Source of the DNA: Alphaproteobacteria bacterium
Lineage (GTDB): Bacteria; Pseudomonadota; Alphaproteobacteria; Puniceispirillales; Marisalimonadaceae
Direction: 5' to 3'
NCBI GenBank assembly: GCA_004213885.1
Contig: SGYL01000003.1
Coordinates: 1 to 64,000, forward strand
DNA: 64,000 nt
This document shows, piece after piece, positions 25,157-59,637 of the stretch. Below the pieces are notes generated by a model. The model ran no database searches. It was not told where the DNA came from and saw nothing but the letters and a program-made list of their open reading frames with translations. Within the stretch, counting starts at the first letter, position 1; the number at the start of each line of letters is the position of its first letter. A program made the position numbers and the translations under genes.

Positions 25157-28100
25157 ATGTCGTTTTATACCGCTTTAACAGGTTTGAATGGATCTCAGGC
25201 TGATATCTCAGCAACTTCTAACAATATAGCAAACGTTGCGACTACAGGTTATAAGAGAAGTAAAGCTGAATTTGGTGATATTTTTGCGACTTCACCATTA
25301 CAAAATGCATCATCATCAATTGGTTCTGGTACTATTTTAAAAGGTATTAAACAACAATTTACTCAAGGTAACGTAACATCTTCACTTAATGCACTTGATT
25401 TAGCAATATCCGGTCAAGGTTTCTTTGCTCTAAGGCCTTCTCTTACTACTAATCAAACAGTTTATACTAGAAACGGTTCTTTTTCAGTAAATAATGATAG
25501 ATTTGTGGTTGACTCTGCAGGTCAGTATGTTTTGGCACTTCCTGTATCTAATGATGGATCTGTTCAAGGTGGAGAAATTGTTGATGCGGCACCATTAAAA
25601 TTAGAATTAGAAGCTGGTGAAGCAAAAGCTACAAAAAATTTAGATTTATCGGTGAATCTTCCTGCATCTTCAAGTGTTTATGCAAATGCAGATGATTTTG
25701 ATCCATCAAATCCTGAGACATATAATTCTTCAACTTCTGTCACAATTTTTGATAATTTAGGTAACCCTGTTATTGCAACAGCTTATTTTATTAAAACTCA
25801 AGCTGCATCTGGAGATAATGTAACCCACAAATATCAAACAAAATTTATCGTTGATGGAAGAGAAGTTGAACCTTCTTTGACAGAAGCCATTTCACCAACT
25901 GGGCAAACACTTGTTGTTGATAGATTTGGTCAAATAATACCAATAGATGAGAAACCACAGATTATTTCTGTTGCTCAAACTCAGCCATTATTTTATTTAG
26001 ATGATCTGGCAAATAAAACTGTATCAAAAGCTGCTACAGTAACGAATGAAGTACTTGAAGATGCAGCTTTTACAACCACAGCTCCATCTATAACTATAGT
26101 AACAGATCCTTTACAATATAATACAACTTATGAAGCAAACCCTACATTAAATAAATCAACTTATTGGGGAAAAGATTTTCTTACAATAAGAGTTGATGAT
26201 ACTACTGGAAGTGCAGCTTTTAAAAGTATTGATATAAGACCTGGGACTTATACTGCAGCTTCTCTTGCACAAGAAGTTCAAAGAGCAATTAATGCAGGTT
26301 TAGGTGATGATTCCAAATTGTCTATTGACCCAGTTACGGATGGAAACTTTTCAATTCAATTTAACCAGTTAGATAATAATGATGAAATTCAAACACTATC
26401 TGCAATTAAGGTTGACTTAATGAAAGATAGTTTTGTTACTGAAGATTTATTTAGTTCAACAAGTGGTATTGAAAATGTTGCTTCACCAAACTTTGAAAGA
26501 GAAGAATTTTTAGCTCATGCTCAATTAAGAATAAATGATGCTTTAAATAGAGCAGCTGTATCATCTGATGGTGCTACTAATAATTCATCTACTTATGGTG
26601 TTAGCTCATCACTATTTGCCAGAGGGACTGGAGCTAAAATAGCAAATGCAATTCAAGAAACAGAAGTGTTAAGTTTTAAATATAAACAACCAGCTACAGA
26701 TTTAACTAACGAAAATGCAGTTACGGATGAAACTAAATTCTTACTACATAGTTATTATAATTCTTCCCCAACTTTAAAAGTTTTTGAAAGTTCATTAGAT
26801 GTTAAAGCTGTTAGTGGTAATACAATGGTTCAAGATGCTAGTGGTACATTAAAAGTTTATGTGAATGACCCTAATGATACAATATCTACTACAACTTTTC
26901 CAACTGAAGTTCATCTAGCTGGAGAATTTGATACATCAACTTCTGAAGTTAACAATTTAAAGTATAATGGTGCAAAATTTTCTGTTTCTAGTGCTGGAAC
27001 TGACGCAAATGGAAATAAATTTTTAAACCTTAAATCAGATTCAACTTCAGCAATTAATATTACAGATACAAAAATCAAAGTACTTCACACTGAATCTAAA
27101 GATGTTCAAGCTTATTTTGAAGGTGGCACTGATATATTTGATAATCAAACTCAACATTTTGGAAGTAAAAGAATTGTTCTTAAAGAGTTAAATAAACATG
27201 GTTATTTAAATAGTAATGTTAAACAACCTAACACTTTATTAAATATGGCAAGTGGAATGAATACGAACAATTCAATAACTATAACTGTTGATACAACAGT
27301 TGGTTTTCCAGAGAGTGGTACTTTATTAATTGGTTCTGAAGAATTAACTTATGATGGTAAAACAGCTACTACATTTGCGATTACAGGCAGAGGTCAAAAT
27401 GGAACTAGTGCAGCTACTGCACTTGATGATGCAACAGTAAAATTAGCGTCATTTAGTGAAGATGTTTTTAGTGGATTTAAGGACAAACTTAGAAATACTA
27501 CATATACAGATACAACTGCTTTTACAAATTCTCAACCAACTGTAGTTGTTGCTTCAACTGATGGGTTTCCAGATACAGGAACATTATTAGTTGGTAATGA
27601 AAGAATTACATATACTGGCAAAACAGATACTACTTTCACTGGCTTAGGTCGAGGTGCAGATAATACAACTGCAGCAGCTGCGGTTTCAGCAAATTTAACT
27701 GCTGCAGTAACTGTTACAACACCTATTTCAACTATAACAATAAATGATACCTCCTCTTTTGCTGACAGTGGTACAATTATGATAGGAACAGAATTCTTTA
27801 CATATACTAGTAAGGACGATGCGACTAATACTTTCAATGGTATTACTAGAGGTGCTTTTGGCTCAACAGCAGCTACACATGCCACTGGAACAAACAATGT
27901 TAAGCAAGCTCCAGAGATTAGTTTAGTTGAGAGTGTAGAGACTATCGGGCTAGAGATAAGGACTACCGATGTTGCATCAGCGGCAACTTCAGAAGATACA
28001 ACACTAACTGTTGATTCTACAGCTGGTTTTGAAGATGCTGGATTTTTAAGAATTGGAACAGAAGTAATTGGTTATACAGGTAAGACGGATACAACTTTTA

Positions 28101-29797
28101 CTGGTTTAACAAGGGGAGCATCAGGTACAAGGAAACAAGCTCATTCAGTTGATGATAAAATTTTCCAAGAGATATCTATTACTGATGATTGGGTTGATGA
28201 AAACGATCCTGCTCTTAAAATCACGTATGATTCTTCTGGGCAACATTTTAGTTTACAAGGTGTTCCTTCAAAAATTGGAACATCAACATCAAGTAAAATG
28301 TTTTCTTTTTCAGCTTACGCACCTGGTGAAGGAACTGGTTCAAATGCAATTGGTTTAAAAACATTAGCTAATAAAGCTACTGCAAATATTGGTGGTGGTG
28401 CTGTATTAAAAGCAGAGGCAATTGTTTTTAATGGCGATCAGATCGCAGCTGATACTCAAAGAGCGTATGGAGTAGAAGTATCTTATAATAATTTAACAAG
28501 AAAGTTTGACATTTCCAGTGGAAGTACTGGTGAAGATATTCCTTCAAACTCTGCTGTTGGTGTTGGTGATGCAGGTCAGGCTGCTTCAAATATTGAGATT
28601 GGAAGACTTGCTATAGTCAATGGTGAAGCAACAGCTGCTACCGCTGGCACTGGTGGAACTAATGCGCTGTTAGGAATTAATGCTACATCTGCTGTTTCGG
28701 TAGCTGCAGGTGATACTGCTGGTAAAGGACTGAAGTCAACAGCTGCTACTTTAAGTGGTAAAACCTCAAATGAAGACTTATCTGAAGATTTCTTTTTATC
28801 TTCTGCAGCTGAAGAGACAATTTTTGTTGTAAACGTAAATGATATAACGGCTGCTATTAAAGTACCTGAAGGTGTTTATAATGGAACTCAGTTAGCAACA
28901 GCTCTTCAAGAAAGAATTAACCAGATGGAAGATGGTACTGGAAATACTGTAAATGGTGTTACTGTTGTCTATAATACAAATACAAATTCTTTTACATTTA
29001 CAACAGGTACTACTGGTATAAAAAGTAAAATATTCGTTTCTGGAAGTGCTCGTTTAGGGTTAGATAATCTAGAACTTCAAACTGGATCAACACCTTCATT
29101 CGTAAACATGGCTAATGCTACGGCAACTTCTGCTACTGGCCAATCTTTATATGTGAATGATGACGGTGATACCACAACATTAGCACCTGATAGTTCTTGG
29201 ACACCAACAACTAATGGTACTTTTGCAAAAGTTTACTTAAGACCAGGAGAATTAACATTTGATACACAAGGTAACTTGGTTAGTCCAATACAAAAAGTTG
29301 GATATAAAGGTGACTTCGCTGCTAATGCAGATCTAGATCAGTCAGCATTATCAATTGATCTGGATCTTAATTTTAATGGATCAACTCAATTCGCATCTGA
29401 TTTTAACGTTAAATCTGTTACACAAGATGGTCAAACAGTTGGTAAATTAGATGGTTTGGACGTAGCATCTAACGGTCTAGTTAGTGCAAACTACACGAAC
29501 GGATTGAACATTGCACTTGGCAGATTGGTAACTGTTAATTTTAACAACCAAAATGGTTTAAAACAGATAGGTAATGCAACATATGTTGAAACTTCAGTTT
29601 CTGGTGTTGCAAATGTTGGTGAAGCTGGTGCTGACGGTTATGGTACAATTCTTTCAGGTTCTTTAGAAAGATCAAATGTAGATATTACCGAAGAACTTGT
29701 AAACTTAATTACAGCCCAAAGAAACTTTCAGGCCAATGCTAAAACAATTGAGACAAATACAACTCTAACTCAGGCAATTATTCAAATTAGGGCATAA
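25157..29797 (+). CDS. flgE: FlgE, flagellar hook protein, unusually large
   Basis: 1546 aa, against a usual 400-700. The ends are canonical: the N terminus SQADISATSNNIANVATTGY and ALDLAISGQGFF; the C terminus LSGSLERSNVDITEELVNLI, TAQRNFQANAKTIETNT. The large insert is exposed hook surface. It contains FlgE-type pieces (IDIRPGTYTAASLAQEVQRA; VPEGVYNGTQLATALQERIN) and, at about residues 705-1000, four copies of a repeat of the form FPxxGTLLIGxExxTYTGKT, TFTGxxRGAxGT. AGGAG lies just before the ATG. GC content of the insert looks slightly higher than in flanking genes. Co-transcribed with flgBCD and flgF. Confidence 0.95.
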   Translation: MSFYTALTGLNGSQADISATSNNIANVATTGYKRSKAEFGDIFATSPLQNASSSIGSGTILKGIKQQFTQGNVTSSLNALDLAISGQGFFALRPSLTTNQTVYTRNGSFSVNNDRFVVDSAGQYVLALPVSNDGSVQGGEIVDAAPLKLELEAGEAKATKNLDLSVNLPASSSVYANADDFDPSNPETYNSSTSVTIFDNLGNPVIATAYFIKTQAASGDNVTHKYQTKFIVDGREVEPSLTEAISPTGQTLVVDRFGQIIPIDEKPQIISVAQTQPLFYLDDLANKTVSKAATVTNEVLEDAAFTTTAPSITIVTDPLQYNTTYEANPTLNKSTYWGKDFLTIRVDDTTGSAAFKSIDIRPGTYTAASLAQEVQRAINAGLGDDSKLSIDPVTDGNFSIQFNQLDNNDEIQTLSAIKVDLMKDSFVTEDLFSSTSGIENVASPNFEREEFLAHAQLRINDALNRAAVSSDGATNNSSTYGVSSSLFARGTGAKIANAIQETEVLSFKYKQPATDLTNENAVTDETKFLLHSYYNSSPTLKVFESSLDVKAVSGNTMVQDASGTLKVYVNDPNDTISTTTFPTEVHLAGEFDTSTSEVNNLKYNGAKFSVSSAGTDANGNKFLNLKSDSTSAINITDTKIKVLHTESKDVQAYFEGGTDIFDNQTQHFGSKRIVLKELNKHGYLNSNVKQPNTLLNMASGMNTNNSITITVDTTVGFPESGTLLIGSEELTYDGKTATTFAITGRGQNGTSAATALDDATVKLASFSEDVFSGFKDKLRNTTYTDTTAFTNSQPTVVVASTDGFPDTGTLLVGNERITYTGKTDTTFTGLGRGADNTTAAAAVSANLTAAVTVTTPISTITINDTSSFADSGTIMIGTEFFTYTSKDDATNTFNGITRGAFGSTAATHATGTNNVKQAPEISLVESVETIGLEIRTTDVASAATSEDTTLTVDSTAGFEDAGFLRIGTEVIGYTGKTDTTFTGLTRGASGTRKQAHSVDDKIFQEISITDDWVDENDPALKITYDSSGQHFSLQGVPSKIGTSTSSKMFSFSAYAPGEGTGSNAIGLKTLANKATANIGGGAVLKAEAIVFNGDQIAADTQRAYGVEVSYNNLTRKFDISSGSTGEDIPSNSAVGVGDAGQAASNIEIGRLAIVNGEATAATAGTGGTNALLGINATSAVSVAAGDTAGKGLKSTAATLSGKTSNEDLSEDFFLSSAAEETIFVVNVNDITAAIKVPEGVYNGTQLATALQERINQMEDGTGNTVNGVTVVYNTNTNSFTFTTGTTGIKSKIFVSGSARLGLDNLELQTGSTPSFVNMANATATSATGQSLYVNDDGDTTTLAPDSSWTPTTNGTFAKVYLRPGELTFDTQGNLVSPIQKVGYKGDFAANADLDQSALSIDLDLNFNGSTQFASDFNVKSVTQDGQTVGKLDGLDVASNGLVSANYTNGLNIALGRLVTVNFNNQNGLKQIGNATYVETSVSGVANVGEAGADGYGTILSGSLERSNVDITEELVNLITAQRNFQANAKTIETNTTLTQAIIQIRA
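27270..28150 (+). repeat. four-copy repeat inside flgE
   Basis: Four protein-level copies, at about 27270-27420, 27532-27690, 27724-27880 and 27991-28150. Each has a beta-rich start, GTLLIG/GTIMIG/GFLRIG, a conserved tyrosine-threonine (TYTGKTDTTFTG) and RGxxGT. Copies differ clearly, so they are old duplications. Similar repeats are, from memory, frequent in marine phage tail and neck proteins. Confidence 0.8.
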
Positions 29798-33256: not shown

Positions 33257-33580
33257 ATGGATAACATTACTCTAAAATTGAATTCAAAACTCCATAATCA
33301 GAATAATGCTGATACGAACAAATTTAATTCAGATAAAAATTTAAAAGAGTTAAAAGAAATTTCTAATCAATTTGAGTCAATATTTATTAACCAAATATTA
33401 AAACAGGCAAGAAAAAATAAAATAGAAAATGGTCTTTTTGATTCAGAAGCGATAAGAACCTTTAATTCCATGATTGATGAACAATACTCTGAGATTTTAT
33501 CTAAAAAAACAAATTTTGGAATTTCAGATGCTTTATTTAATCAATTTAAATCTCAAGTTGTTAATGAAAGAAAAAAATAA
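33257..33580 (+). CDS. flgJ: FlgJ-like rod-binding protein (no muramidase domain)
   Basis: A 107-aa protein corresponding only to the N-terminal rod-binding domain of FlgJ: KELKEISNQFESIFINQILK, NGLFDSEAIRTFNSMIDEQY. The C-terminal peptidoglycan hydrolase domain of enterobacterial FlgJ is missing, as in most alphaproteobacteria, so another enzyme must open the cell wall. Its stop is immediately before the flgK ATG. Confidence 0.85.
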   Translation: MDNITLKLNSKLHNQNNADTNKFNSDKNLKELKEISNQFESIFINQILKQARKNKIENGLFDSEAIRTFNSMIDEQYSEILSKKTNFGISDALFNQFKSQVVNERKK

Positions 33581-36500
33581 ATGTCTAGTTTATTTGAAAT
33601 TGGAAAATCAGGTGTTCAAGCATATCGTCAGGCTTTATCTGTAACGGGTCAAAATATTGCTAATGTTAATACTGACGGTTATAACAGAAGAGCTGCTGAT
33701 CTCGAGGAGGTTCCAAGTGTTCAAGGTGGAGTAACCAATGTACCTGATCAATCTGGTTTAGGAGTACGAGTTAACAAAATAAGGCGCTCTTTTGATGCTT
33801 TTCTTTCATCAAATCTTAGAGATAATAATGCAGAATATACAAAATTAAAAAAATACGTAGATAACTTAAATAAATTAGAAAATATGTTATTACCAAGTGA
33901 TAGCGATTTAGGAAAATTTATTGGACGTTTTTTTAATTCTTTACAAGATGTATCTTCACGACCTGACGACATTTCATCTAGATCTATCGTAATTGAAAAT
34001 GGAAAAGCTTTAGCAAATTCTTTTAATAATTATGATATGCAATTGAAATCATTTCAATCAACTGCAAGTAAAGAAACTGAAACAAATTTATCAGAGTTAA
34101 ATGAAACTTTAAAACAACTAGCCCAAGTTAATAAATTAATCATGAGTGGAGGTTCAAAAAACTCATCTCCAGACATATTAGATGCGAGAGACCAATTATT
34201 ATCAAAATTATCAAATTTAATTGATTTTTCAGTAGATTATGGAAAAAGTGGAGAAGCAAAAATCACATCGGGTAGTTCTGGAAATGGAAAACTATTACTT
34301 GAAGATACTAACTTTTCAATTTTAACTCATACTATACAAGAAAATAAAATAGTTTTTAATGTCAATAGAGATGCAAAAACTAGTTCTTTAAATAGTTTTT
34401 CTTCAGGAATTTTAAGTGGAATAAAAAATTTTTATGACTTTTCTTCAGATGTTCAATCAGAAATAAATGATCTTGCAAGAAGAGTTGCTAGAGATTTTAA
34501 TGAGATTCAAAAAATTGGGATTGATTTAAATGGAAAAATAGGTTCATCAATGTTTTCTATCAATTCGATGGAAGCAAAAGTTAATGGAAATAATAATTCT
34601 AACTTTAATGTAGAATTAATCATTAGCGATGAAGATAAAATCAGTCAGGAAGATTTGAATTTTAAATTCATTTCTTCTTTAAATTCATGGCAAGTAGCTT
34701 CATCAAGTGGTATTAAAAATTATAATGCAGATAATTTAAGTTTTAATGGATTTAAATTAAAAATAGATGGTATTCCAAGTGATGGAGATCAGTTTTATTT
34801 AAGGCCAGCATTATCAAATGCTTCTGCTTTTTCTTTTTTATTAAATGACCCAAAATCAATTGCAGCAGCATCTAAAAATTTAATTTCAGCTTCACTTGAA
34901 AATACAAGTAAAGCTGAGCTTAAAATAATAGGAAATGAAGTTGAAAATAAGAATAATCAAATTGCTAAAATTAATGATGTTTTTAGTTCTTCGACCAATC
35001 CACTTCTAGCTTCGGAGTTCCTAAAAGACGGGGCTATTGCAACAATTCCAAGCAATTCTAATGAAATCAAAATTTCATCTTTATTGAAACAATCATCTGC
35101 AACATTTGGTATTTATGATAGTCAAATAAAAGGTTTTTCAAATATTTCTATTAATTTGTCTGATGGTAGTAGCATAAATTTAACATCAGCTGTTGAAGAT
35201 CCAGGCGATGGAATTAAATCAGTTCATGAATTAGCAAATATGTTAAATTCAGGCTTATTACTTGATGGTTTAAGTCAACACAATTTTAGGAAATTTGGTT
35301 TGTTTGCATCTGGGGCTGATGGTGGTCTAACGATTTCCTCATCAAATTCTTCTGTGTCCTCTGCATCCATTTTGTCCAATGGTAATACTTATACAGCATC
35401 AATTTCAGACATACCTTCTGACAAAGCAAAGGCTAGTGAGATTCAAATTTTTACAAGAGATGGACGACATATCAGTGGAAAATCATTAGATGCATCACAA
35501 ATAGCGTCACTTTTTAAAGAAAGTAATGGTTTTTTGAAAAATGCTGAGTATAGAAATGATTATTTAAATACGAATTATAGAGGAATTGAAAGTAATAGGG
35601 TAAGTGTAACCGGAGACCACATTTATGACTTTGGTACTAATATAAGTTATGATAAACAAGCAACCGATGAAGATGGATTATTTACAAATAAAAATGCACA
35701 GTCTTTATCTGGAGCTCTTGTACTTGATGGAGAATTAGCAAACTCTAATGACATTGATGGTTATATAACCATAACTAATTCATTAAATGATACTTCTATA
35801 AATTATACTATTAAAGGTTATGATCAAGATGGTAACTTTCAAACAGAAACGCTTCCCGGGGGAAGTGAAGCACAAGTTACTGGGAATAAAATTTTTAAAT
35901 CAATCTCTTCTATTACATCTAGTGGAAATGGTGCTGGGGACTTAAAAATTGGGATCAAATCTGCTGGTTTTACTCTTAAAGTAGAAAACAACAATGGAAA
36001 TATTTCTAGTTCAACTATGCCAGTTAATGCCTCTGCTTATTATATGGCAGATAAATTAACTAATGATCTGGCAGGAACTGGAATACAAGCAACTGCGTCA
36101 AATAGGGTTATGTTAGGTCCATTATCTTCTGATACAAATGGATTAATGTCATTTAAATTGAAAGGCAGTAATTTCGATCCAGTAACTATATCTGCTAATA
36201 TTTCACAAGATGATTTATCAAACTTAGCGAGAGTTATTAATCAATATTCAACTCAAACAGGTATAAATGCTTACTCTACAGAGGATTTTGATCGAATTGT
36301 TTTAGAATCAAATGTTGGTTATGACATAGAATTAACTGAAATAAGTTCACCTTCGGATTTCAAGATATATTCATTAAATCAAGATTTTGAAAGAATAAGC
36401 GATCGTCATTTTATAGATGTTTCAGAAAGTTCAAAAAGATCTGCTTATATTAATGGAACAATTAGATTTTCATCAACATCAGATTTTACAACTCAAATTG

Positions 36501-39500
36501 ATAACGGGATCTTAAATTCATCTCAATTAGATGAAAAAACAAATGGCTTTTACAACATAAATTATAATTCAACTGGAGAAAAAATTACTGTAAATCCGAT
36601 TTCACTTGAACACTTAGATGATAGTGTTTCAGGTCCAAATGGAAAAAAATCTCAATCAGGAAAAGCAACATATGGATTAAGCATTCCTTTGGCAGGCTAT
36701 AGAGTTGAAGTGACGGATGATGATAGCTTATATACTCAAGCAAGCCCTGCGGGTACAGGCACAAAAAGTTTTTCAGGTGGGTTTCTAAAAGATAGCTCAA
36801 ATTTAAACTCAACTATCGTGTTAACTTGTCTTGGAGATGAAAGCGCAAATACTTTTACTATAAGTGGAACAGATTATGATGGAAATACTGTTTCTGAAAC
36901 TTTAAATGGTGTGAATAATGGTGTTATAAAAGGTGTTCAACTATTTAAATCTGTTACTTCATTTTCTCTTTCAAACGCTGTAAGTGGAAATATTAAAATA
37001 GGAACTGATGGTCGCCATAGGGTAAATGATGATGATTCGATACTTACTCAAAATACATATACTTCAAATACCTATACAACCTCTTCGACACCTGCCTTAA
37101 ATGGAATACTGTCATCTTCAACCTATTTAGGTGCAAAGTTAACAATTCAAAACTTTGAAGATGAAAGAAATAATACTTTCACGGTAACAGGATATAATTT
37201 AGATGGTGATGTAATAACAGAACAAATAAAAGGTACAAATGGAACTTTATCTATGGGAGAAAAAGTTTTTAAAAGTATTACTTCAGTAGCAATAGCAAAT
37301 AACACGTCTGGTTCAATTAAAATTGGAACAGTTGCCGCAGAGGATTTTTGGAAAGCTAATATAGATGCAAATGCTTTAAATTTGTCAACATCATCGGAAA
37401 TATCTCAATCACTTCTCAATAAAATCAGAGAAGAAGCGCCTACTTCAAAGATAGAAGGTTCTGTGATTAGTAACTTACCTATTGACGATTCAGAACTAGA
37501 TGTTGTTTTTGAAGGACAAACATATTCCTTAAAAATGACTTCAGGTGAATTACTTGTAGATGGACCTGAAGAAAATAGAGTAAAAGCAAAATTTGAAGAA
37601 ACATCAAATATTTCTGAAAATTCTATTGCATTATCCCAACTAGGGTCTGCTGGAGTAAATTTAACTTTGAATGGTAATAGTGCAACTTCTACATTTGCAG
37701 GTACAAGAGTTTCGATTACTTCAGTTGAAGATGAAAGTTTGAATAGTTTTACTGTTTCTGGAACTGATTTGAATGGTAATGCAATTACAGAAAAAATAAT
37801 AGGATCAACCGCAGGTAATACTAATTCAGGTTTAAAAATATTTAAAACAATTACTTCAATTCAACCAAGTTCAAATACTGCAGGTAACATACAAATTGGT
37901 ACAGCAACAGCCTATAAATTAATTGTCATTGCAGAAGGGACTATTGAAGGTGACCAATTTGACTTAGTTCAAGATACACAAAATTTGTCTTCAGCTTCAA
38001 ATTTTGGAATATCTGATGGAACAACCTCATTAATTGGTAATTTAGCTCTGAAACCAACTGAAAATGATACTTCCTTTAGAATTAACATTGAAAATAATGA
38101 TTTAATTAACGATTTCAATGTTAAGTTTTTAAGTGATAGTAGTGAAACTTCTTTATTAACAAGCTCTGCAATCTCTAGTACAGCAGACTTATTTGGAGGA
38201 ACACCTAGTACAACTCTTCTTGGAGGAAAAATTAATATTAAGACGGCAACATCTGGAGATAGAACTGGTGTAAATTTCACAGTGGTTGGAAGAGATATGA
38301 GTGGTAATGAAATTACTGAGGTTATTACAGGTGCAATTGGAGGAGAAACAGCTAAAGGATCAAAAATTTTTAAAACGGTTACATCAATAACACCAAGTGC
38401 AACAACTGGATCTGGTAATATTGAAATAGGGCACGAAAGTCAGCCAGTGTTCTTTAATGTGTCTAATGAACAAAGTCTATTTTCATCAAAAATAATGACT
38501 ACAAATACAAGTTTAGGAACTCCAAAAACTCATAGTCAGGTTGGAGGTAAAGTTAAAATATTTACTGCCTCTGGAGGAGATCATTCAATTACTAAATTTA
38601 CTATTGTAGGAACTGACTATAAAGGTGATGCTTTAACAGAAGTTATTGAAAATGGACCATTAAGTGGAAAAGCAGTTGTTGGAGGCAAAATATTTAAAAC
38701 AATAAGTTCTATTACACCTCAGCCTATTTCAGAAATAGTGACATCTGCAAACGTATCAATAGCAAATGATACCATTACAATCTCTAATCATATGTTATCT
38801 ACAGGATCAAAAATAACTTATTCGAACGGAAGTGCTGCTGACATTACTGGTTTGTCAAACAATACTGATTATTATGCAATTGTAATAGATGCAAATACAA
38901 TAAAACTTGCAAGTTCACTTGCAAATGCAAACTCTAACAACTCAATTTCACTAACAGGTACTGGAAATAATAATCAAACTTTTACTAGGGATGTTATTGG
39001 TACTGGTTCAGTAGATATTGATTTGGTAATTACAACAGATGCAAGTTTAAATCCACCAAGTGATATTACAGTAAGTTGGACAGACGATGCTTCTGGGACT
39101 ACTGATGATGATGGTTTATTTCAAAGTGCGGCCGTTTCTGGAAGTCCACCTTCAAAATTACAATTAAATGGAGTATTAACTTCACAAGATACCGATAGTT
39201 TGTATGCCACAAAGACAGGTACTTCTGGATTATTAAATTTAGATGGTGCCTTAAAAAATAATAAAGAATTAAGAGCTGTCGTTCAAATCGCTTTTTCTGG
39301 GGCAGAAACAGGTAAAACATTTACTGTTGCTGGATATGATTTGGATGGAATTTATAAAACAGATGTAATTAATGGTCCAAATAGTGCTTCTACAATCGAG
39401 GGATCTGTGCAATTCAGAGAAGTTATTTCTATAACTGCATCAAGTGCTACAGCTAACAATATTCAAATTGGAACAAGAGCAGAATCAGCAAATGTAAATG

Positions 39501-40540
39501 GATCTGTGATATCTATAACATCCTCTGGTGATGAAAGTAATAATGAGTTTACAATTGTTGGCAAGGATATGTTCGGAAATGATCAAACAGAGATTATGAT
39601 GGGTGGTAATGCAACATCTGTAAATGGAAAAAAAGTTTTTAAATCAATAACATCAATTACTCCGTCATCAGCTACAGGTGTAAATACTATAAAAGTTGGA
39701 ACTATTTCAACAGGAAGATTTTCTATATCCCATGAAATAGGAAAATCTAACTTTTCAATTGATAGAAATCCTAATGTTCAAGATGTTTATGGTATTAAAA
39801 CTCAAAGGACTAGAGCAATTATTAATGACGGGAAGATAGAACTTAACTCATTGAATGGACGACCTATATCAGTCGATATACCAGCAGGTTCAACATCCAA
39901 TGTAGTTTCTGAACAAATATCTATTTCAAACCTTCCTAATGAAGAACTCATAGCTGTTGTAATGGGTGGTGGAGCAAGAAGGATTAATGCAGAATTTAAT
40001 TTTGTTAATGACAATCATATTAAAGAAGAACCAGAGTATGAAATAAAAATTGACAAAACTAATAAAAATAAAATTGAAATATTTGATAAAGAATTTGGCC
40101 ATTCTATTTCTACTAGAATTTTAGACAATGCAAGATCTTTTGAAGCTATTGGATCAAGATTCCAATTCTCTGATGAAGCATTAATTGGCGAGAGTTTTTT
40201 GATTAGCAATAATAACTCAGGTTCGGGTGATAACAGAAATATAAATAATATGTTGGATTTACAATCTGATAAAATACAATCTAAGGGAAAAGGAAATTTT
40301 CAACAAATTTTTTCTAATACTGTTGCTAAAGTTGGCAGTAGTGTTCAAACAAATAAATTATCTTTAACTGCAGCGGAAGCTAACAAAGATGCTGCAGAAA
40401 GTGCTTTAAGCGAATTTTCAGGTGTTAGTTTAGATGATGAGGCAGCTCATTTATTGGAGTTTCAGCAAGCTTATCAAGCATCGGCACGATTATTGCAAAC
40501 TGCAAGAGAATTATTTCAATCATTAATTGAAGTAGTCTAA
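33581..40540 (+). CDS. flgK: FlgK, hook-filament junction protein 1, giant form with repeats
   Basis: 2319 aa, several times the usual 450-1000. The ends are canonical. The N terminus has SVTGQNIANVNTDGYNRRAA, VRVNKIRRSFDAFL and DISSRSIVIENGKALANSFN. The C terminus has NKLSLTAAEANKDAAESAL, SGVSLDDEAAHLLEFQQAYQ and ASARLLQTARELFQSLIEVV. The 1600-residue insert carries about eight copies of a module whose core reads FTIxGxDxxGNxxTEVIxG, then KxFKxITSITPSS and a final IxIGT. Several copies are preceded by a DDDGLF...LDG segment. The frame is uninterrupted, so it is not an assembly of pseudogene pieces. Stop at 40540; flgL follows by 15 bases. Confidence 0.95.
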   Translation: MSSLFEIGKSGVQAYRQALSVTGQNIANVNTDGYNRRAADLEEVPSVQGGVTNVPDQSGLGVRVNKIRRSFDAFLSSNLRDNNAEYTKLKKYVDNLNKLENMLLPSDSDLGKFIGRFFNSLQDVSSRPDDISSRSIVIENGKALANSFNNYDMQLKSFQSTASKETETNLSELNETLKQLAQVNKLIMSGGSKNSSPDILDARDQLLSKLSNLIDFSVDYGKSGEAKITSGSSGNGKLLLEDTNFSILTHTIQENKIVFNVNRDAKTSSLNSFSSGILSGIKNFYDFSSDVQSEINDLARRVARDFNEIQKIGIDLNGKIGSSMFSINSMEAKVNGNNNSNFNVELIISDEDKISQEDLNFKFISSLNSWQVASSSGIKNYNADNLSFNGFKLKIDGIPSDGDQFYLRPALSNASAFSFLLNDPKSIAAASKNLISASLENTSKAELKIIGNEVENKNNQIAKINDVFSSSTNPLLASEFLKDGAIATIPSNSNEIKISSLLKQSSATFGIYDSQIKGFSNISINLSDGSSINLTSAVEDPGDGIKSVHELANMLNSGLLLDGLSQHNFRKFGLFASGADGGLTISSSNSSVSSASILSNGNTYTASISDIPSDKAKASEIQIFTRDGRHISGKSLDASQIASLFKESNGFLKNAEYRNDYLNTNYRGIESNRVSVTGDHIYDFGTNISYDKQATDEDGLFTNKNAQSLSGALVLDGELANSNDIDGYITITNSLNDTSINYTIKGYDQDGNFQTETLPGGSEAQVTGNKIFKSISSITSSGNGAGDLKIGIKSAGFTLKVENNNGNISSSTMPVNASAYYMADKLTNDLAGTGIQATASNRVMLGPLSSDTNGLMSFKLKGSNFDPVTISANISQDDLSNLARVINQYSTQTGINAYSTEDFDRIVLESNVGYDIELTEISSPSDFKIYSLNQDFERISDRHFIDVSESSKRSAYINGTIRFSSTSDFTTQIDNGILNSSQLDEKTNGFYNINYNSTGEKITVNPISLEHLDDSVSGPNGKKSQSGKATYGLSIPLAGYRVEVTDDDSLYTQASPAGTGTKSFSGGFLKDSSNLNSTIVLTCLGDESANTFTISGTDYDGNTVSETLNGVNNGVIKGVQLFKSVTSFSLSNAVSGNIKIGTDGRHRVNDDDSILTQNTYTSNTYTTSSTPALNGILSSSTYLGAKLTIQNFEDERNNTFTVTGYNLDGDVITEQIKGTNGTLSMGEKVFKSITSVAIANNTSGSIKIGTVAAEDFWKANIDANALNLSTSSEISQSLLNKIREEAPTSKIEGSVISNLPIDDSELDVVFEGQTYSLKMTSGELLVDGPEENRVKAKFEETSNISENSIALSQLGSAGVNLTLNGNSATSTFAGTRVSITSVEDESLNSFTVSGTDLNGNAITEKIIGSTAGNTNSGLKIFKTITSIQPSSNTAGNIQIGTATAYKLIVIAEGTIEGDQFDLVQDTQNLSSASNFGISDGTTSLIGNLALKPTENDTSFRINIENNDLINDFNVKFLSDSSETSLLTSSAISSTADLFGGTPSTTLLGGKINIKTATSGDRTGVNFTVVGRDMSGNEITEVITGAIGGETAKGSKIFKTVTSITPSATTGSGNIEIGHESQPVFFNVSNEQSLFSSKIMTTNTSLGTPKTHSQVGGKVKIFTASGGDHSITKFTIVGTDYKGDALTEVIENGPLSGKAVVGGKIFKTISSITPQPISEIVTSANVSIANDTITISNHMLSTGSKITYSNGSAADITGLSNNTDYYAIVIDANTIKLASSLANANSNNSISLTGTGNNNQTFTRDVIGTGSVDIDLVITTDASLNPPSDITVSWTDDASGTTDDDGLFQSAAVSGSPPSKLQLNGVLTSQDTDSLYATKTGTSGLLNLDGALKNNKELRAVVQIAFSGAETGKTFTVAGYDLDGIYKTDVINGPNSASTIEGSVQFREVISITASSATANNIQIGTRAESANVNGSVISITSSGDESNNEFTIVGKDMFGNDQTEIMMGGNATSVNGKKVFKSITSITPSSATGVNTIKVGTISTGRFSISHEIGKSNFSIDRNPNVQDVYGIKTQRTRAIINDGKIELNSLNGRPISVDIPAGSTSNVVSEQISISNLPNEELIAVVMGGGARRINAEFNFVNDNHIKEEPEYEIKIDKTNKNKIEIFDKEFGHSISTRILDNARSFEAIGSRFQFSDEALIGESFLISNNNSGSGDNRNINNMLDLQSDKIQSKGKGNFQQIFSNTVAKVGSSVQTNKLSLTAAEANKDAAESALSEFSGVSLDDEAAHLLEFQQAYQASARLLQTARELFQSLIEVV
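35759..39708 (+). repeat. about eight copies of a phage-like module inside flgK
   Basis: Approximate copies: 35759-35970, 36810-37011, 37131-37338, 37702-37910, 38221-38449, 38540-38730, 39270-39486, 39500-39708. Shared core: a strand ending xIxITS, FTIxGxDxxGN, TExIxG, KxFKxITSIT, and IxIGT. The same module appears twice in fliD and twice in the minus-strand flagellin. Copies differ enough that they are not recent DNA duplications. Confidence 0.85.
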
Positions 40541-40555: not shown

Positions 40556-41842
40556 ATGAAAGTTAGTACTAAATTATTTAATCAACAACAACTGAAGCAA
40601 TTTACTTCTTTAAACGAAGAAATTCAAAAAACTCAAAATAAAATTTCAACAGGTAAAAACATACTCTTAGCTTCAGATGATCCTATAGGATCTGTTCAGT
40701 TGTCAGGTTTACAAGTAATTAGAGATCAAATAAATCAATATAATAAAAATATTGAAACTTCAAAGGAAAGACTAAGTTTACTCGATAAAAACTTACAAAA
40801 CATGAATACAATTATGATTAGAGCTCAAGAGTTGATAATACAAGCATCTAGTGATGTATTAGGACCATCTGATAGAGAATCAATTGCTCTTGAAATTGAT
40901 GAAATGAAGCATGAAATTTTAAGTATTGCAAATACTCAAGACTCTACAGGAAGTTTTCTTTTTTCTGGATATAAAACAAATACTTTACCTTTTGAAAAAG
41001 ATTTTAATGGTTTAGTACAATATAATGGTGATAGAGGTGTTTCCTCATTATCTATTTCTGAAAGTAATATCATGCAAACCACTTTAGATGGAGGAAGTGT
41101 ATTCCAAAATGTAATAGATAATAATCAAAAGAGTTTCTCCGTTTTTGAACTTTTAGAAGATGTTAGTGCATCTATTAGAACTGCAGCAGCAGGTGTGAAT
41201 GGTGTAAAATCAATTGCTCAAGCAGAATTATCAATTTTTAACCAAAATCCAGGACAATGGTCTTTTGAAATAACAGGGAGTTTAGGTACTCAAAATATAG
41301 AAGTTGAAATTGCAGGTGACAATCCAACAGAAATTGTTGATAAAATAAATCAATATATCAACACTACAGGTATTACAGCTAGTTTAGATAGTGATGGTAA
41401 AACAATACTTCTATCAGATTCTAAAAACGGTCCATTAGAAATTAAAAATTTATCTGTATATGGCGTTGAAAGAGCTGAAGAAACTCCAAAATCTTATATT
41501 GAGGTTAAAACAAAAGACGCAGTTGGTAATTTTTTAAGTAAAAATCAAATATTGTACGATGATAACCAAAGGCCAGCCAAACAACTAGATAAAATTGTAA
41601 ATGCTCAATCGCATATTTCTAATAAAAGAGGGTCAGTTGGTGCTAGGGTAAATTCACTTGAAAGACAATCTGAACTCTTAATAGAACGACAAAATGCTGT
41701 AGAAAAGGATGTAAGTGATTTAAGTGAAGCAGATTTATCAACTTTAGTAACAAATTTGCAATCTATGCTTACTTCAATGCAAGCTAGTCAACAGGCATTT
41801 GTAAAAGTATCTCAGCTTAACTTGTTTGATTATATTAGATAA
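40556..41842 (+). CDS. flgL: FlgL, hook-filament junction protein 2
   Basis: A 428-aa flagellin-like junction protein. N terminus: EIQKTQNKISTGKNILLASD, DPIGSVQLSGL; C terminus: SHISNKRGSVGARVNSLERQ and SEADLSTLVTNLQSMLTSMQ, ASQQAFVKVSQLNLFDYI. The central region has a flagellin-IN-like segment (EITGSLGTQNIEVEIAGDNP). Normal length, unlike FlgK. Confidence 0.94.
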   Translation: MKVSTKLFNQQQLKQFTSLNEEIQKTQNKISTGKNILLASDDPIGSVQLSGLQVIRDQINQYNKNIETSKERLSLLDKNLQNMNTIMIRAQELIIQASSDVLGPSDRESIALEIDEMKHEILSIANTQDSTGSFLFSGYKTNTLPFEKDFNGLVQYNGDRGVSSLSISESNIMQTTLDGGSVFQNVIDNNQKSFSVFELLEDVSASIRTAAAGVNGVKSIAQAELSIFNQNPGQWSFEITGSLGTQNIEVEIAGDNPTEIVDKINQYINTTGITASLDSDGKTILLSDSKNGPLEIKNLSVYGVERAEETPKSYIEVKTKDAVGNFLSKNQILYDDNQRPAKQLDKIVNAQSHISNKRGSVGARVNSLERQSELLIERQNAVEKDVSDLSEADLSTLVTNLQSMLTSMQASQQAFVKVSQLNLFDYIR

Positions 41843-43358: not shown

Positions 43359-44255
43359 TTATTTAACTTCAAATCTATCACCTATTTTTAATTTTCCATC
43401 ATATGTATATTCGGTAACTTTTATAAAACTATCTTGGGTCTTAACTATAAAACCATCTGGTTTTATGTTTATAATCGCACCAACTATACATTTATAAATT
43501 GGTGCGTTTTTAATGTGTTCTACCTTATTAATTTTCATTGCCTTTTTGTTGATAAACGTTCTGGCTAAAGGGCCTGGACTACAGATCGCCCTTACAAAAT
43601 TAAATATTTCTCTGCTTGTTTGGTTCCAATTTAATGTATTATCACCTATATTTCTTTTTGAACAATAAAAACCTGTAGGATGTATTTCATTTTGTTTTTT
43701 AGCTTTTACAGGGCCATCTTTAAACATTAGTATTGCATCATATAAAATATTGGCACAGCCGACATAAGCTCTTTCAAGAAGAGTCTTATAATTATCTTGA
43801 TCTGAAATTTGATAAATTTTTTGTAGAATAATATCTCCGGTATCTATCCCATCATCAACATAATGGACAGTAATGCCAAATTCTTTTTCATCATTTATCA
43901 ACGCCCAATTTAGAATACTTCTCCCTCTATAAAATGGTAATTTACCTGCATGACAATTTATAGTGTTGTATTTGGCTAATTTAATGATTTTAGTTTTAAA
44001 GATTTGGTCAAAGGACATTGAAACAAATAAATCACAATTATATTTTTCTATAGTCGCAACAAATTTATCAGAATTAATGTTTCTATGCTTTAAGTAATCA
44101 ATACTATATCGCTTTGCATAATTTTTTAAAGTCTCATCTTTAGTGTCAAATTTAACGCATATGAATGATATTTTAATATCAGAGTCATGTATTAATTTAT
44201 CAAAAGTTTTATGGCTCCATGGACCGTCTGCAAAATACCCAATATTCAATTTCAT
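43359..44255 (-). CDS. formyltransferase family protein (probable sugar N-formyltransferase)
   Basis: About 298 aa. The start at 44255 is chosen because it forms an ATGA overlap with the upstream gene; an ATG at 44273 is the alternative. The catalytic formyltransferase core is clear: TINCHAGKLPFYRGRSILNW (Asn-x-His) and GITVHYVDDGIDTGDIILQ (Asp). The C-terminal part (GDNTLNWNQTSREIFNFVRA) has the FMT C-like domain. It is not the housekeeping methionyl-tRNA formyltransferase by context: it lies with an aminotransferase and flagellar genes, so formylation of an amino sugar for flagellin glycan is likely. Confidence 0.85.
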   Translation of the reverse strand: MKLNIGYFADGPWSHKTFDKLIHDSDIKISFICVKFDTKDETLKNYAKRYSIDYLKHRNINSDKFVATIEKYNCDLFVSMSFDQIFKTKIIKLAKYNTINCHAGKLPFYRGRSILNWALINDEKEFGITVHYVDDGIDTGDIILQKIYQISDQDNYKTLLERAYVGCANILYDAILMFKDGPVKAKKQNEIHPTGFYCSKRNIGDNTLNWNQTSREIFNFVRAICSPGPLARTFINKKAMKINKVEHIKNAPIYKCIVGAIINIKPDGFIVKTQDSFIKVTEYTYDGKLKIGDRFEVK

Positions 44256-44464
44256 TTGGTTATCATCGAGCAAGGAATGTTTATAAGTTTCTCTTTTAAA
44301 AACTTTATAATCTCTAAATTAATTATTTGACAGTCTTTAAATACCTCTAACACATTAATTAAATCCCGCAAAGGAACTCTCATTATACGCTGAGAATTAA
44401 TTTCATTTAATACATGTATCTTACTGTCTTTTATTGAATAGTCTAAAAACGTTCCAATTTGCAT
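44252..44464 (-). CDS. hypothetical 70-aa protein, coupled to the formyltransferase
   Basis: Unrecognised small protein with a beta-rich start (MQIGTFLDYSIKDSKIHVLN) and a helical end (LINVLEVFKDCQIINLEIIK). Its stop overlaps the formyltransferase ATG (ATGA), so the two are translated together. Possibly a small subunit or accessory protein. Confidence 0.55.
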   Translation of the reverse strand: MQIGTFLDYSIKDSKIHVLNEINSQRIMRVPLRDLINVLEVFKDCQIINLEIIKFLKEKLINIPCSMITK

Positions 44465-52469: not shown

Positions 52470-55076
52470 ATGGCAGTAGATTATTTAAGTGCTCTAAATA
52501 CTAAAGGAAGTGGTTTAAATATTACTCAAATTGTAGATAGTTTGGTTAATGCTGAAAAAATTCCACAAAGCGAGCTTATAAATAAAAAAATTAATGAAAA
52601 AAATACTTCAATATCAGCTATTGGAGAAATAAAAAGTGCAATGTCAAACTTTTCTTCAACTGTAAAAGCTTTGAAAGGTGCAACAGCATATAACCCTTCA
52701 TCTAATAGTTCATCATTATCTATAAGCATAACAGACTCAGCCAAAGCAAGATCTCTTAATTCAAGCGTAAATGTGACTTCGTTGGCTGCAGGGCAAACTT
52801 TAGCTTTTACAGGGTTTTCTTCAACAACTTCTGCCGTAGGGGCCGGTTCATTAACTCTACAAAGAGGTGATTGGTCGTCAGGAAGTTTTGTATCAAGGTC
52901 GACCGTCTCATCTCAAGTACTGAATGTATCTGCAACTGATACATTGGCATCATTGCGTGATAATATAAATGCAATGAATTATGGTGTTACAGCAAGTATT
53001 TTAGGTTCTGGTGATGGTACATATAATTTAGTTTTAAAGTCTGAAACTGGTTCTGAGAACGCTCTTAGAATAACAGCGACTGAAACTCCATCAGGCTCTG
53101 GTCTTGCTGCTATAGATAACACAACCACAAATGGTTCAAAACAAACTATTGCGGGAAGTAACGCTACAATAGTTGTTGATGGCATGACATTAACAAGAAC
53201 CTCAAATACTATCACAGATTTATTTGATGGATATGAAGTGAATTTAATAAGTACAACTTCATCAGCCGCAAAATTAACATCATCAGTTGATGTTGAAACA
53301 GCAAAAGTTAATATGAATGCTTATATCGATTCAATTAATACTTTGAAAAAAATATTTAATGAAAAAACATTTAGAGGATCTTCAACTCAAGAAGCAGGAG
53401 AGTTGTCTTCCGATAGTGTCATTAACGGAATTAAAAAACAAATTGATCTTTATTTATCAAATGGTTTACCTGGATTTGGTGAGAATAGCCTGTACTTATC
53501 AAATTTAGGAGCACGTACAGAAAAAGATGGTACTTTATCCTTAAGCTCATCTTTATTTGAAAAAGAAATTAAAAATAATCCATCAACGTATGATGCTATT
53601 TTTAATTCAACTTATTCTTCTTCTTCAACTTTACTTTCAGTTTCAGGAGGAACAAACAAACCGCCTAAAGCTGGAAGTTATGCTTTTGAAATGACGGCAT
53701 ATGTCGCAGGAGCTTTGACAGGATTGAATAGCACAGATAGCACTCCAGAGGTAACTAGCTCAAACAATACAATCCAAGTCACAGTTGATGGTGTGTCTAC
53801 AGGAGTATTGACTATACCAGCTTCACATTATTCTTCTCAAGGAGCTCTAGCAACGGCTATTCAAACAGCAATAAATAGCGACTCTAATTTAACATCAGTT
53901 GGAAATTCTGTAATAGTTTCTTATGAAAATGGAAGTTATACAATAAAATCAGCTTCGAAAGGTGCTTCTACTTCTGTAGTTTTAGATGCTATAGGGACAA
54001 ACTTAGATGGTTTTTTGAAAATGAATGGCTCTGCAGACGCAGATGATATTGGTTCTTCTCAAACAGGCACTGCAAGTACAGCTATTACATTTAATGGATC
54101 ATCCTCATTTATTACATCAACAGATGCAGATGGTCTTGTTGACGCAGAGAGTATAGTAGGCGCTGGTGATTTAACTATTGATGGTAGTCAAGACTCTCTT
54201 GCATCAAGCGGATTAAATTCATTCATTACAATTAATAGTACAAATAATCTGTCTGGAGTTCAATTTTCAATTACAGGAACTGATATTGACGGAAACGCAA
54301 TCTCAGAAGTTATTACTGGTCCAACTGCAGGTGCAACTGTGACATCATCAAATATATTTCGTACAATTACCAAAATTGAAACAGATGGATCAGCAAGTTC
54401 AGTAAATGTAGGAACAAAATCTGTTTTTGTAAATTTAGAAGGGAAAAGGGCAAGCATTACAAGTGCGGGAGGAAATGAAAGCTCAGTATCTTTTACAGTT
54501 TTAGGAACTGATATGAATGGAAATGCTCAAACTGAAGTCATCACAGGTCCAGCGGCAAGTGCTACAGTCATAGGATTAAAGACTTTTAAAACAATTTCAT
54601 CGATTACACCAGATACAAATACGTCAGGTTCAATTACATTAGGTTATAGTGGAGTAGGGATTACAACTGATGGTGTTACAGGATCAGCTACTCTTAATAC
54701 TGTAGCTATGGTTGCTGATGTTACAAATAATATTTTTTCAATGTCAACAGGTGATGCTGCAGGTTTAAAAGTCCAATATTCTGGACTTGGGGCAAATGCA
54801 TCAGTTTACTATGGTGAAAGTTCAGTCGACATATTGACGTTTTATATTGATGACATTTTATCTTCTTCAAATAGTTTAATATCGGATAGATTAACAAGAT
54901 TAAATAAAGATTTAGTTTCACAAAATACAATGTTAAGTGATCTTGATAGTCAATATGAATCAATACGAGATAGGTATATGGTTCAATTTACAGCTATGGA
55001 ACAAGCCGTAACAAGTTTAAAGTCAACAGGTGATTACTTAACTAATTTATTCAAAGCAATGAATAAAGATGATTAA
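52470..55076 (+). CDS. fliD: FliD, filament cap protein, enlarged
   Basis: 868 aa, against a usual 450-700. The N-terminal FliD region has GSGLNITQIVDSLVNAEKIP and KISAIGEIKSAMSNF-like helices; the C-terminal region has LTRLNKDLVSQNTMLSDLDS and RDRYMVQFTAMEQAVTSLKS. The insert holds a hook-like piece (VSTGVLTIPASHYSSQGALA) and, at residues about 584-729, two tandem copies of the module also found in FlgK and in one flagellin. GAGAAATAA precedes the ATG. Confidence 0.95.
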   Translation: MAVDYLSALNTKGSGLNITQIVDSLVNAEKIPQSELINKKINEKNTSISAIGEIKSAMSNFSSTVKALKGATAYNPSSNSSSLSISITDSAKARSLNSSVNVTSLAAGQTLAFTGFSSTTSAVGAGSLTLQRGDWSSGSFVSRSTVSSQVLNVSATDTLASLRDNINAMNYGVTASILGSGDGTYNLVLKSETGSENALRITATETPSGSGLAAIDNTTTNGSKQTIAGSNATIVVDGMTLTRTSNTITDLFDGYEVNLISTTSSAAKLTSSVDVETAKVNMNAYIDSINTLKKIFNEKTFRGSSTQEAGELSSDSVINGIKKQIDLYLSNGLPGFGENSLYLSNLGARTEKDGTLSLSSSLFEKEIKNNPSTYDAIFNSTYSSSSTLLSVSGGTNKPPKAGSYAFEMTAYVAGALTGLNSTDSTPEVTSSNNTIQVTVDGVSTGVLTIPASHYSSQGALATAIQTAINSDSNLTSVGNSVIVSYENGSYTIKSASKGASTSVVLDAIGTNLDGFLKMNGSADADDIGSSQTGTASTAITFNGSSSFITSTDADGLVDAESIVGAGDLTIDGSQDSLASSGLNSFITINSTNNLSGVQFSITGTDIDGNAISEVITGPTAGATVTSSNIFRTITKIETDGSASSVNVGTKSVFVNLEGKRASITSAGGNESSVSFTVLGTDMNGNAQTEVITGPAASATVIGLKTFKTISSITPDTNTSGSITLGYSGVGITTDGVTGSATLNTVAMVADVTNNIFSMSTGDAAGLKVQYSGLGANASVYYGESSVDILTFYIDDILSSSNSLISDRLTRLNKDLVSQNTMLSDLDSQYESIRDRYMVQFTAMEQAVTSLKSTGDYLTNLFKAMNKDD
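54220..54655 (+). repeat. two tandem phage-like modules in fliD
   Basis: Copies at about 54220-54423 and 54439-54655: FSITGTDIDGNAISEVITG and FTVLGTDMNGNAQTEVITG, each followed by an FKTISSIT-type strand and a final VGT/LGY. Same family as the repeats in flgK. Confidence 0.85.
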
Positions 55077-57417: not shown

Positions 57418-59637
57418 TTAATTCTGTAATAAAGTAAGAACGTTTTGTTGTATTCTTCCTGCCTGTGCAATCATTGCAAGAGCTGATTGTTGAAGTATTT
57501 GTGCTTTTGTTAATGCAGCAGATTCTTTTGCAAAGTTTGCATCTCTAATTCTTCCTCTCGATGCTTCAGTATTAACAGCAACGTTTGTCAAATTATCTAT
57601 GGCTTTTTCCATTCTACTCATTAATGCGCCAAGCTTAGCTCTTTCTAAGTGAATTCTATCTAGAGATCTGTCTATAACTCTAAGTGCATTGATTGATGCA
57701 TTTCTTGTTTTAACGTCAACTGTTTCTAACTTGTCAAGTGATGCTGCACCTGGAGAAGATTCAAATAAACTTTTTTCTTCTTCACCAAGAACAGTAAAAC
57801 TATTACTAGAATAAAATTCTAATTGTCCTGAAACTATTGCTGAATCAGCACCTTTCAGGCCAACAGTTATGGCTGCACTTGTATTACTGTCAGGTGTTAC
57901 TGAGAATATTGTACTAAATACTAGTCTGCCACTTGCTGTATTACCAGCTGTAGGGCCTTTAATAACCTCAGTTTGGGCATTACCATCCATATCATATCCG
58001 ACTACTGAGAATAATACTCCACTTTCGTCACCTGTAGAACTTGTGATTGTCACAAGAGATGATCTAGCATTAACGGCTTGTTCTATACCTGCTGAAATTG
58101 TACCAGCAAGTGCACCATCAACAGAAATCGAAGTTACACTTTTAAAAACTTTTGTACTTGTTACTGCAGCGGTATTACCCATTGGTACTTCTTCTGTTAC
58201 TGTGTTTCCATAAAGGTCTGTTCCGGTTATTGTTGCTTTTCGGGCAGAGTCATTACCACCTGAAGTTAAGGTAATTCTTGAATTTAAAGTTAATGAAGTT
58301 GCTCCAGTAACTAAAGCTAATGTATCTCCGCTTGTAAAACCACCACCAGCTTGACTTGCAGCTATAGATGCAGCCGCAGTTGTCGAAGCCTTGCCTGATG
58401 TATTAAGTGTCATTGCAGTTGCAGCAGTACCACTTGCAGAGGCGACTACATCATCTGTATCTGTAGTGACGGCAGCTTTATCTGATAACATAACAGAACT
58501 TCCTGCAGTAGCTTCATCATTATCTAAGCTTGTTACGACAAGAGCTTTTCTAGTTCCAGTTGTTGCTGTGTCACCTGCAAAATCTACGTCACCTAATTTT
58601 ATATCATAACCTTCATTTTGAACTAGAATAATATTAGTTGCATCAGCAGATAAAGTTGCAGTAATACCTGTAGTTGTAGAATAATTATTAACTGCATCCC
58701 TTAGAGCGGATAAATCAGATGTACCTGTTGTTGTTCCAAAGTTAATATTTGCTGAAACTGCTGTCGCTGTAGCATTTTTCCCTTGAATTGTAAATGCAAC
58801 ACTATTCAATCCTGTATTATCTGAACCAAAGGCTTTTGCTTCAATTTTTAATTGAGTTGATGCTAATGCATTTACTCCTGTTGTTTCAAAAGCATTATTT
58901 ACTAAAGTTGCAACATCTCTTATTGTTGAACCTGCAGTAGTAGTAAGAGTTTTGCTTCCAAGAAGACCATGGATTGTAAAACTTTCTTCTTGTACTAAAT
59001 TAGCATTACTTGCTGAATCTGTTGCATATGCATTTAATGCAAGATTATTAGCTGTGCTAGCACTACTTAGTCCACTAGTATTGTCTGTACCATATTCTCC
59101 ATCGGTTGTACTTGTTGTGACCTTAAATGCACCCAACGCACTTAATCTCATTGATGAAATTGAAAGTGTAGCAAATTCTCTTTCATGAACACCAATTTGA
59201 AATCTTCTATCTGCAAAAGTTCCATCTAATACAGCGATTTCATTAAAAGTTGTATCTCTTGTAACACGGTCATGTTCTGCTAGAAGTTGTTGAACTTCTG
59301 CATTTAGATAACTTCTTTCTTCTGCATTATATGAATCTGTCGCAGATTGGATAGCTAACATTCGAATTCTTTGAAGGATAGAAGATGTTTCATCAAGTGC
59401 TCCTTCAGTTACTTGTGCCATAGAAATAACATCAGCCGCATTCCTCGCTGATTGTTCTAAACCTTTTATCTGTGAAGTCATTCTGTCAGATATAGCAGCA
59501 CCTGCTGCGTCATCTCCAGCATGATTTATTCGTTTGCCAGAGGATAATCGTTCCATTGCAGTCGTTAAATCACGATCTGTTTTGTTCAGATTATTTAAAG
59601 CATACTTAGCAGCTATATTAGAATTAACTGTTGGCAT
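57418..59637 (-). CDS. fliC: flagellin 2, with phage-like modules
   Basis: 739 aa. The N terminus MPTVNSNIAAKYALNNLNKT, AMERLSSGKRINHAGDDAAG and the C terminus RGRIRDANFAKESAALTKAQ, ILQQSALAMIAQAGRIQQNV are flagellin D0/D1. The centre differs from flagellins 1 and 3 and includes two tandem copies (about residues 451-600) of the module also in FlgK and FliD. Base use in the central part (rich in GCA/ACT/GTT codons, higher G+C) differs from neighbours. It is expressed from a sigma-54 promoter, unlike the other flagellins, so it is probably made earlier. AAGGAG precedes the ATG. Confidence 0.96.
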   Translation of the reverse strand: MPTVNSNIAAKYALNNLNKTDRDLTTAMERLSSGKRINHAGDDAAGAAISDRMTSQIKGLEQSARNAADVISMAQVTEGALDETSSILQRIRMLAIQSATDSYNAEERSYLNAEVQQLLAEHDRVTRDTTFNEIAVLDGTFADRRFQIGVHEREFATLSISSMRLSALGAFKVTTSTTDGEYGTDNTSGLSSASTANNLALNAYATDSASNANLVQEESFTIHGLLGSKTLTTTAGSTIRDVATLVNNAFETTGVNALASTQLKIEAKAFGSDNTGLNSVAFTIQGKNATATAVSANINFGTTTGTSDLSALRDAVNNYSTTTGITATLSADATNIILVQNEGYDIKLGDVDFAGDTATTGTRKALVVTSLDNDEATAGSSVMLSDKAAVTTDTDDVVASASGTAATAMTLNTSGKASTTAAASIAASQAGGGFTSGDTLALVTGATSLTLNSRITLTSGGNDSARKATITGTDLYGNTVTEEVPMGNTAAVTSTKVFKSVTSISVDGALAGTISAGIEQAVNARSSLVTITSSTGDESGVLFSVVGYDMDGNAQTEVIKGPTAGNTASGRLVFSTIFSVTPDSNTSAAITVGLKGADSAIVSGQLEFYSSNSFTVLGEEEKSLFESSPGAASLDKLETVDVKTRNASINALRVIDRSLDRIHLERAKLGALMSRMEKAIDNLTNVAVNTEASRGRIRDANFAKESAALTKAQILQQSALAMIAQAGRIQQNVLTLLQN
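57840..58285 (-). repeat. two tandem phage-like modules in flagellin 2
   Basis: Copies at about 58285-58075 (ATITGTDLYGNTVTEEV) and 58065-57840 (FSVVGYDMDGNAQTEVIKG), each followed by a strand of the KVFKSVTSI type. The first copy is the closest of all to the phage form I recall. Confidence 0.85.

Follow-up and report, generated by a model that had tools for sequence, protein, structure and literature searches.

Results

A giant FlgK in an ordinary flagellar operon

The window, by which we mean the whole stretch of 64,000 nucleotides that was analysed, holds an flgK gene that encodes 2319 residues in a single uninterrupted reading frame opening with ATG (Table 1). Gene order in the window is normal around it (flgDEFGHIJKL): flgJ (33257-33580) lies directly upstream, and flgL (40556-41842) follows. 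The product scores 261.1 bits with TIGR02492 (flgK_ends), for which the curated cut-off is 170.75, and exceeds the Pfam cut-offs of FlgK_D1 (154 bits, residues 96-325), Flg_bb_rod and Flg_bbr_C; a further Pfam match, to flgK_1st_1 at residues 335-409, stays below its cut-off. The reading frame is a true FlgK, and the original prediction of a giant FlgK of 2319 residues is borne out by the frame itself, by the two sets of models and by its place between flgJ and flgL. At the junction the protein presumably does what FlgK ordinarily does.

The protein is about four times the usual size: Salmonella FlgK (9go6) has 553 residues and Burkholderia FlgK (4ut1) has 673. Among the matches listed for an Alphaproteobacteria sample, most FlgKs have about 450-920 residues, and those of more than 1000 residues belong to this order or to one of a few other lineages. 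In a Pseudomonadota sample, the longest other FlgK among the matches listed had 985.

Relative to Salmonella FlgK, the extra sequence (about 1,765 residues) lies all at one point: residues 2199-2318 correspond to Salmonella residues 434-552, and the two ends align as if they were contiguous. An in-frame insert between intact D0/D1 ends had been foreseen, and that part stands; its size had been put at about 1600 residues, a figure that the alignment revises upwards. The D0/D1 ends, the FlgK_D1 domain and the gene order flgJKL are common to the giant protein and to the FlgKs (HAP1) of Salmonella and Burkholderia. Because Burkholderia FlgK has about 90 extra residues (458 to 550) at the same junction, the insert occupies the usual slot of the outermost domain, that is, the outer D2/D3 region. 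Its exposure, and its decoration of the junction, would follow from this topology.

Judged by its sequence, the insert is mostly made of a repeated domain of about 92 residues, present in eight copies with the core FTVxGxDxxGNxxTExI...FKxITSI.

Table 1. Flagellar features of the window, numbered from its first letter
Feature	Position	Strand	Evidence or remark
flgE, 1546 aa, giant, with a different repeat	25157..29797	+	PHROG virion/baseplate matches
flgK, 2319 aa	33581..40540	+	ORF list; Pfam; TIGR02492
FlgK residues 1-433, N-terminal D0/D1 and D2-like part	33581..34879	+	Aligned with Salmonella FlgK 1-440
Insert, FlgK residues ~434-2198	34880..40174	+	Alignment; one point relative to Salmonella FlgK
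Proximal part of insert, residues ~434-687	34880..35641	+	Common to giant FlgKs of other SAR116 families
Repeat domain unit 1, residues 708-798	35702..35974	+	Modelled by AlphaFold2 with N-terminal flank
Repeat domain unit 2, residues 1058-1148	36752..37024	+	
Repeat domain unit 3, residues 1166-1256	37076..37348	+	
Repeat domain unit 4, residues 1356-1447	37646..37921	+	
Repeat domain unit 5, residues 1530-1624	38168..38452	+	
Repeat domain unit 6, residues 1637-1734	38489..38782	+	
Second domain type, residues 1720-1775	38738..38905	+	Phage P-HM1 and PHROG matches
Repeat domain unit 7, residues 1880-1971	39218..39493	+	
Repeat domain unit 8, residues 1967-2047	39479..39721	+	Abuts unit 7
FlgK residues 2199-2319, C-terminal D1/D0	40175..40540	+	Aligned with Salmonella FlgK 434-552; Flg_bbr_C
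fliD, filament cap, 868 aa	52470..55076	+	FliD_N, FliD_C; two copies of the ~92-aa domain
Tandem repeat-domain pair in FliD, residues 563-655 and 653-732	54156..54665	+	
Flagellin, 739 aa	57418..59637	-	Flagellin_N/C; two copies of the ~92-aa domain
Tandem repeat-domain pair in 739-aa flagellin, residues 436-524 and 517-600	57838..58332	-	

The enlargement is conserved and probably predates the repeats

A comparison of FlgK lengths in related genomes, which the original prediction had proposed as a check, found the protein enlarged throughout the family and the order. Complete FlgKs of the source family, Marisalimonadaceae in the order Puniceispirillales, have 2126-2474 residues, and those of other SAR116 families 1199-2030, the single-contig genomes among the latter giving 1199, 1402 and 1620. 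The giant protein is a fixed trait of the whole family, and each complete FlgK retrieved from the order has at least a smaller version of it. That it might be an oddity of one window was rejected in view of this conservation. A scan of contigs with FlgK returned a SAR116 metagenome-assembled genome at 78% identity, and a distant Bdellovibrionales FlgK also matched.

For the insert, pairwise dN/dS came to about 0.07-0.33, a level that matches or slightly exceeds the one found in the ends, although several dS values exceed 1 and make these ratios rough. In distant pairs the insert diverges faster than the ends. These comparisons indicate that the insert is under purifying selection, and they fit a maintained, faster-diverging outer region.

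Family relatives carry 7-10 copies of the ~92-residue domain in FlgK. The enlarged FlgKs of other SAR116 families are devoid of it and share residues 1-687 and ~2045-2319, many of them also residues ~795-1036. As these families have the core without the repeats, an older expansion probably came first and the family-specific repeats later. In a tree of 151 units, built on sequences of about 80 residues and moderately supported, units group by position across species and not by genome, so that the duplications would be older than the split of the genera. An apparent further repeat type, resembling VSSGNTFKISVDGTSSGTITLP..., occupies residues 690-1530 of the giant FlgK of another lineage (L080, lineage G425); self-BLAST at 1e-3 gave no confirmation of it. 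FlgL, for its part, is only 300 residues long in some SAR116 lineages (L066, L068, L074, L075), versus about 428 elsewhere in the order.

The source is a draft genome, 84% complete, and repeats in the protein might betray an assembly artefact or fused reading frames; long reads exposing a misassembled repeat had been named as what would overturn the original prediction. Within flgK, however, no exact repeat reaches 18 nt and no N letter occurs, which makes a collapsed or expanded DNA repeat implausible. Separately assembled genomes yield many orthologues of similar length with their units in the same places, enlarged FlgKs occur in single-contig genomes, and dN/dS is low through the insert. 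Misassembly was rejected on the orthologue lengths and the absence of exact repeats, and we regard any artefactual origin of the giant gene as next to inconceivable.

The same domain in cap and filament proteins

A profile search of the source genome found 12 copies of the ~92-residue domain, all in the window: eight in FlgK, two in FliD, two in a flagellin and none elsewhere. Across the family, copies likewise lie in FlgK, FliD and flagellin reading frames. The domain was detected in 31 of the 37 family genomes searched, the source genome included, and in none of 24 genomes from other families of the order. The unit tree places FliD unit 1 with the fourth FlgK unit from a sister genus, and FliD unit 2 close to flagellin unit 2; this suggests, with moderate support, that a tandem pair was copied between genes. 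The sharing among the three proteins would therefore be old and accompanied by exchange between genes.

A large outer decoration at the hook-filament border, as originally proposed, is a natural reading of a single in-frame insert at an outward-facing site. The decoration is not particular to the junction, as the domain also sits on FliD and flagellin and FlgE too is giant.

Three different flagellins are encoded in the window, of 701 (55159-57264, +), 739 (- strand; Table 1) and 664 residues (60926-62920, +). Of these only the 739-residue protein carries the repeat domain, which some relatives (L129, L130, L133) also have in their flagellin of the 701 type. Between flgL and fliD, positions 43359-50533 (-) encode a formyltransferase-like protein, a DegT aminotransferase, a TPR-GT41 (OGT-type) glycosyltransferase, a 2OG-Fe(II) oxygenase and a TPR protein, possibly a set for flagellar glycosylation.

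Giant FlgE and a second family with its own domain

The hook protein FlgE has 1265-1741 residues in relatives, and its repeats (GFPdSGtLliGsE.itYtgkt) match PHROG families of virion structural and baseplate wedge proteins, with E values down to 1e-25. In another SAR116 family (f3; L069, L067, L071, L186-L189) the FlgK repeats belong to another domain, for which PHROG gave weak tail/baseplate matches; it occurs in six copies in FlgK, one in FliD, one to three in the flagellins and two in FlgE of the same genomes. Two families with two unrelated-looking domains on the same set of outer proteins point to a rule rather than an accident. We lean slightly towards a general form of this rule, in which each SAR116 family dresses FlgK, FliD and flagellin (in one family also FlgE) with its own phage-structural-type repeat, copied between genes, to give a lineage-specific uniform sleeve whose largest part would be a crown at the hook-filament junction.

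The second family bears on what such a sleeve might do. A thick matched coat could block phages that bind the flagellum, grazers or predators, with the variety between families being the trace of an arms race. Sister families do differ in coat content but clothe the same set of outer proteins, and the faster divergence of the insert in distant pairs would suit this idea; within the family, however, purifying selection predominates and no trace of positive selection appears, and we hold a shield to be rather unlikely. The outer domains might instead pack together and make hook, junction, filament and cap thicker and stiffer, as an aid to swimming in sea water. FlgE, FlgK and FliD are all enlarged, and thick filaments formed by giant flagellins are known from other marine bacteria (PMC6248924), but the flagellins here have only 664-739 residues and an enlarged ring of 11 adds little stiffness to a filament. 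A mechanical role is possible, at odds that we place as low as those of the shield.

Relatives in phage structural modules

The repeated domain was not seen in the known FlgK structures found. Consensus units had no convincing Pfam match and a best PHROG match of E 0.029, which places the domain in no named family of either collection. When 386 genomes of the class were searched with the domain profile, just four others matched, weakly or singly, one of them through a protein of 640 residues (L154). In another, L153, the match lies in a phage-like stretch with genes for a major head protein and a tail fibre as neighbours: a protein of 216 residues there holds one copy of the domain and scores 76 bits. 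Relatives of this protein are encoded by 23 viral contigs (IMG/VR loci), and the eight of them that were scored reached 47-75 bits, so that similarity to proteins of phage structural modules extends over most of the domain at 47-76 bits. The ~216-residue proteins (L153, L157-L179) have the lead-in D-x-D-G(I/L)...G-x-L-x-L-x-G, as do the FlgK units. They bear a single copy joined to another C-terminal domain and belong to a phage gene module, whereas FlgK has eight copies.

Unit 1, modelled with its N-terminal flank, is predicted with confidence by AlphaFold2 to be a beta-sandwich (pLDDT 87.8), and its best match in BFVD is a protein of an uncultured Caudovirales (TM 0.79, 30% identity, E 1.7e-7). 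Eight phage sequences were present in the input alignment, and the fold evidence is therefore not independent of the sequence evidence. For a tandem pair, two units that abut, the model was of too low a quality to be used (pLDDT 58), and a rod-like chain of units is therefore conjectural. Elsewhere in the insert, residues 1720-1775 are 55% identical to a stretch of a tail fibre of Prochlorococcus phage P-HM1 and match a PHROG baseplate wedge family. This short match was the only one that named phages gave to the whole FlgK, and they gave none to the consensus unit; viral contigs scanned with a FliD unit and with FlgE yielded nothing. By its sequence, the ~92-residue domain is a homologue of a small phage protein from structural-gene modules, with either the phage or the bacterium as donor.

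The fold also bears on function. Beta-sandwich units could bind glycans or surfaces (particles, phytoplankton or the cell's own polysaccharide), so that the flagellum would serve attachment. Their relatives are found in virion proteins of phages, a setting in which such domains often bind surfaces, and the weak PDB matches of the unit model include carbohydrate-binding modules. These matches are nevertheless many generic beta-sandwiches with Z of 5-6.8, under the caution line of 8, and no family was assigned from them; no ligand or enzymatic signature came to light; and eleven FlgKs would be far outnumbered by thousands of flagellins. An adhesive role thus remains a tentative proposal, though one that we rank above shield and stiffener.

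Discussion

The reading that we prefer, at a probability of roughly 80%, is that of an authentic FlgK with an outer slot enlarged in two steps and a phage-type domain that was multiplied and copied to FliD and flagellin, producing a matched outer sleeve. In the first step, the outer D2/D3 slot would have expanded to give the parts common to the enlarged FlgKs examined in the order (residues ~434-687, often ~795-1036, and the C-terminal ~270). In the second, confined to the source family, a beta-sandwich domain of about 92 residues would have been inserted and multiplied to 7-10 copies, and FliD and flagellin would have received copies of it in their outer regions, usually as a tandem pair. The flagellar secretion system presumably exports FlgK in unfolded form. 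In Salmonella and Campylobacter, eleven FlgK subunits make up a ring above the hook (PMC12221982), and the D0/D1 ends described here would build the usual junction ring of 11 subunits. The ~1,765 extra residues of each subunit, eleven times over in all, would then, unless cleaved off, fold outside as a putative chain of beta-domains, and a single kind of domain would be displayed along junction, filament and cap like a matching sleeve.

As to the role of this sleeve, the parts concerned share a domain and not an assembly function, and a surface coat that binds or shields therefore seems likeliest, ahead of a change in core assembly. The purpose of a matching propeller coat has adhesive, shielding and mechanical candidates. 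SAR116 bacteria occur widely in ocean surface waters, and the trait is therefore no rarity of one strain.

What is new here is the size of FlgK and the phage-type outer domain that it shares. A literature search, in a collection with few subscription journals, found no paper on giant or unusually large FlgK or on FlgK in SAR116. Nor did the searchable papers contain the rule that emerges from our comparison: junction, filament and cap proteins gain the same domain in their outer parts, in at least two families and with different domains, both with phage structural relatives. With such a rule, comparison becomes a way to test what flagellar outer domains are for.

Two known systems offer parallels. 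Flagellin_IN (PF07196) is likewise small and recurs in the outer regions of several flagellar proteins, in this case FlgL and the flagellins; it is nevertheless another domain, with a model of about 55 positions, whereas the FlgK units match no Pfam model. The giant flagellins of Bermanella and Oleibacter (PMC6248924) also come from marine bacteria, with an axial protein of more than 1000 residues and internal duplication of an outer-region domain. There the filament protein is giant, whereas in SAR116 the hook and junction proteins are giant and the flagellins moderate. That study raises the question of whether other components of the flagellum are enlarged to match, and FlgK is not mentioned in it; the present locus gives an answer at the level of sequence, in a lineage with giant FlgK and FlgE rather than giant flagellin.
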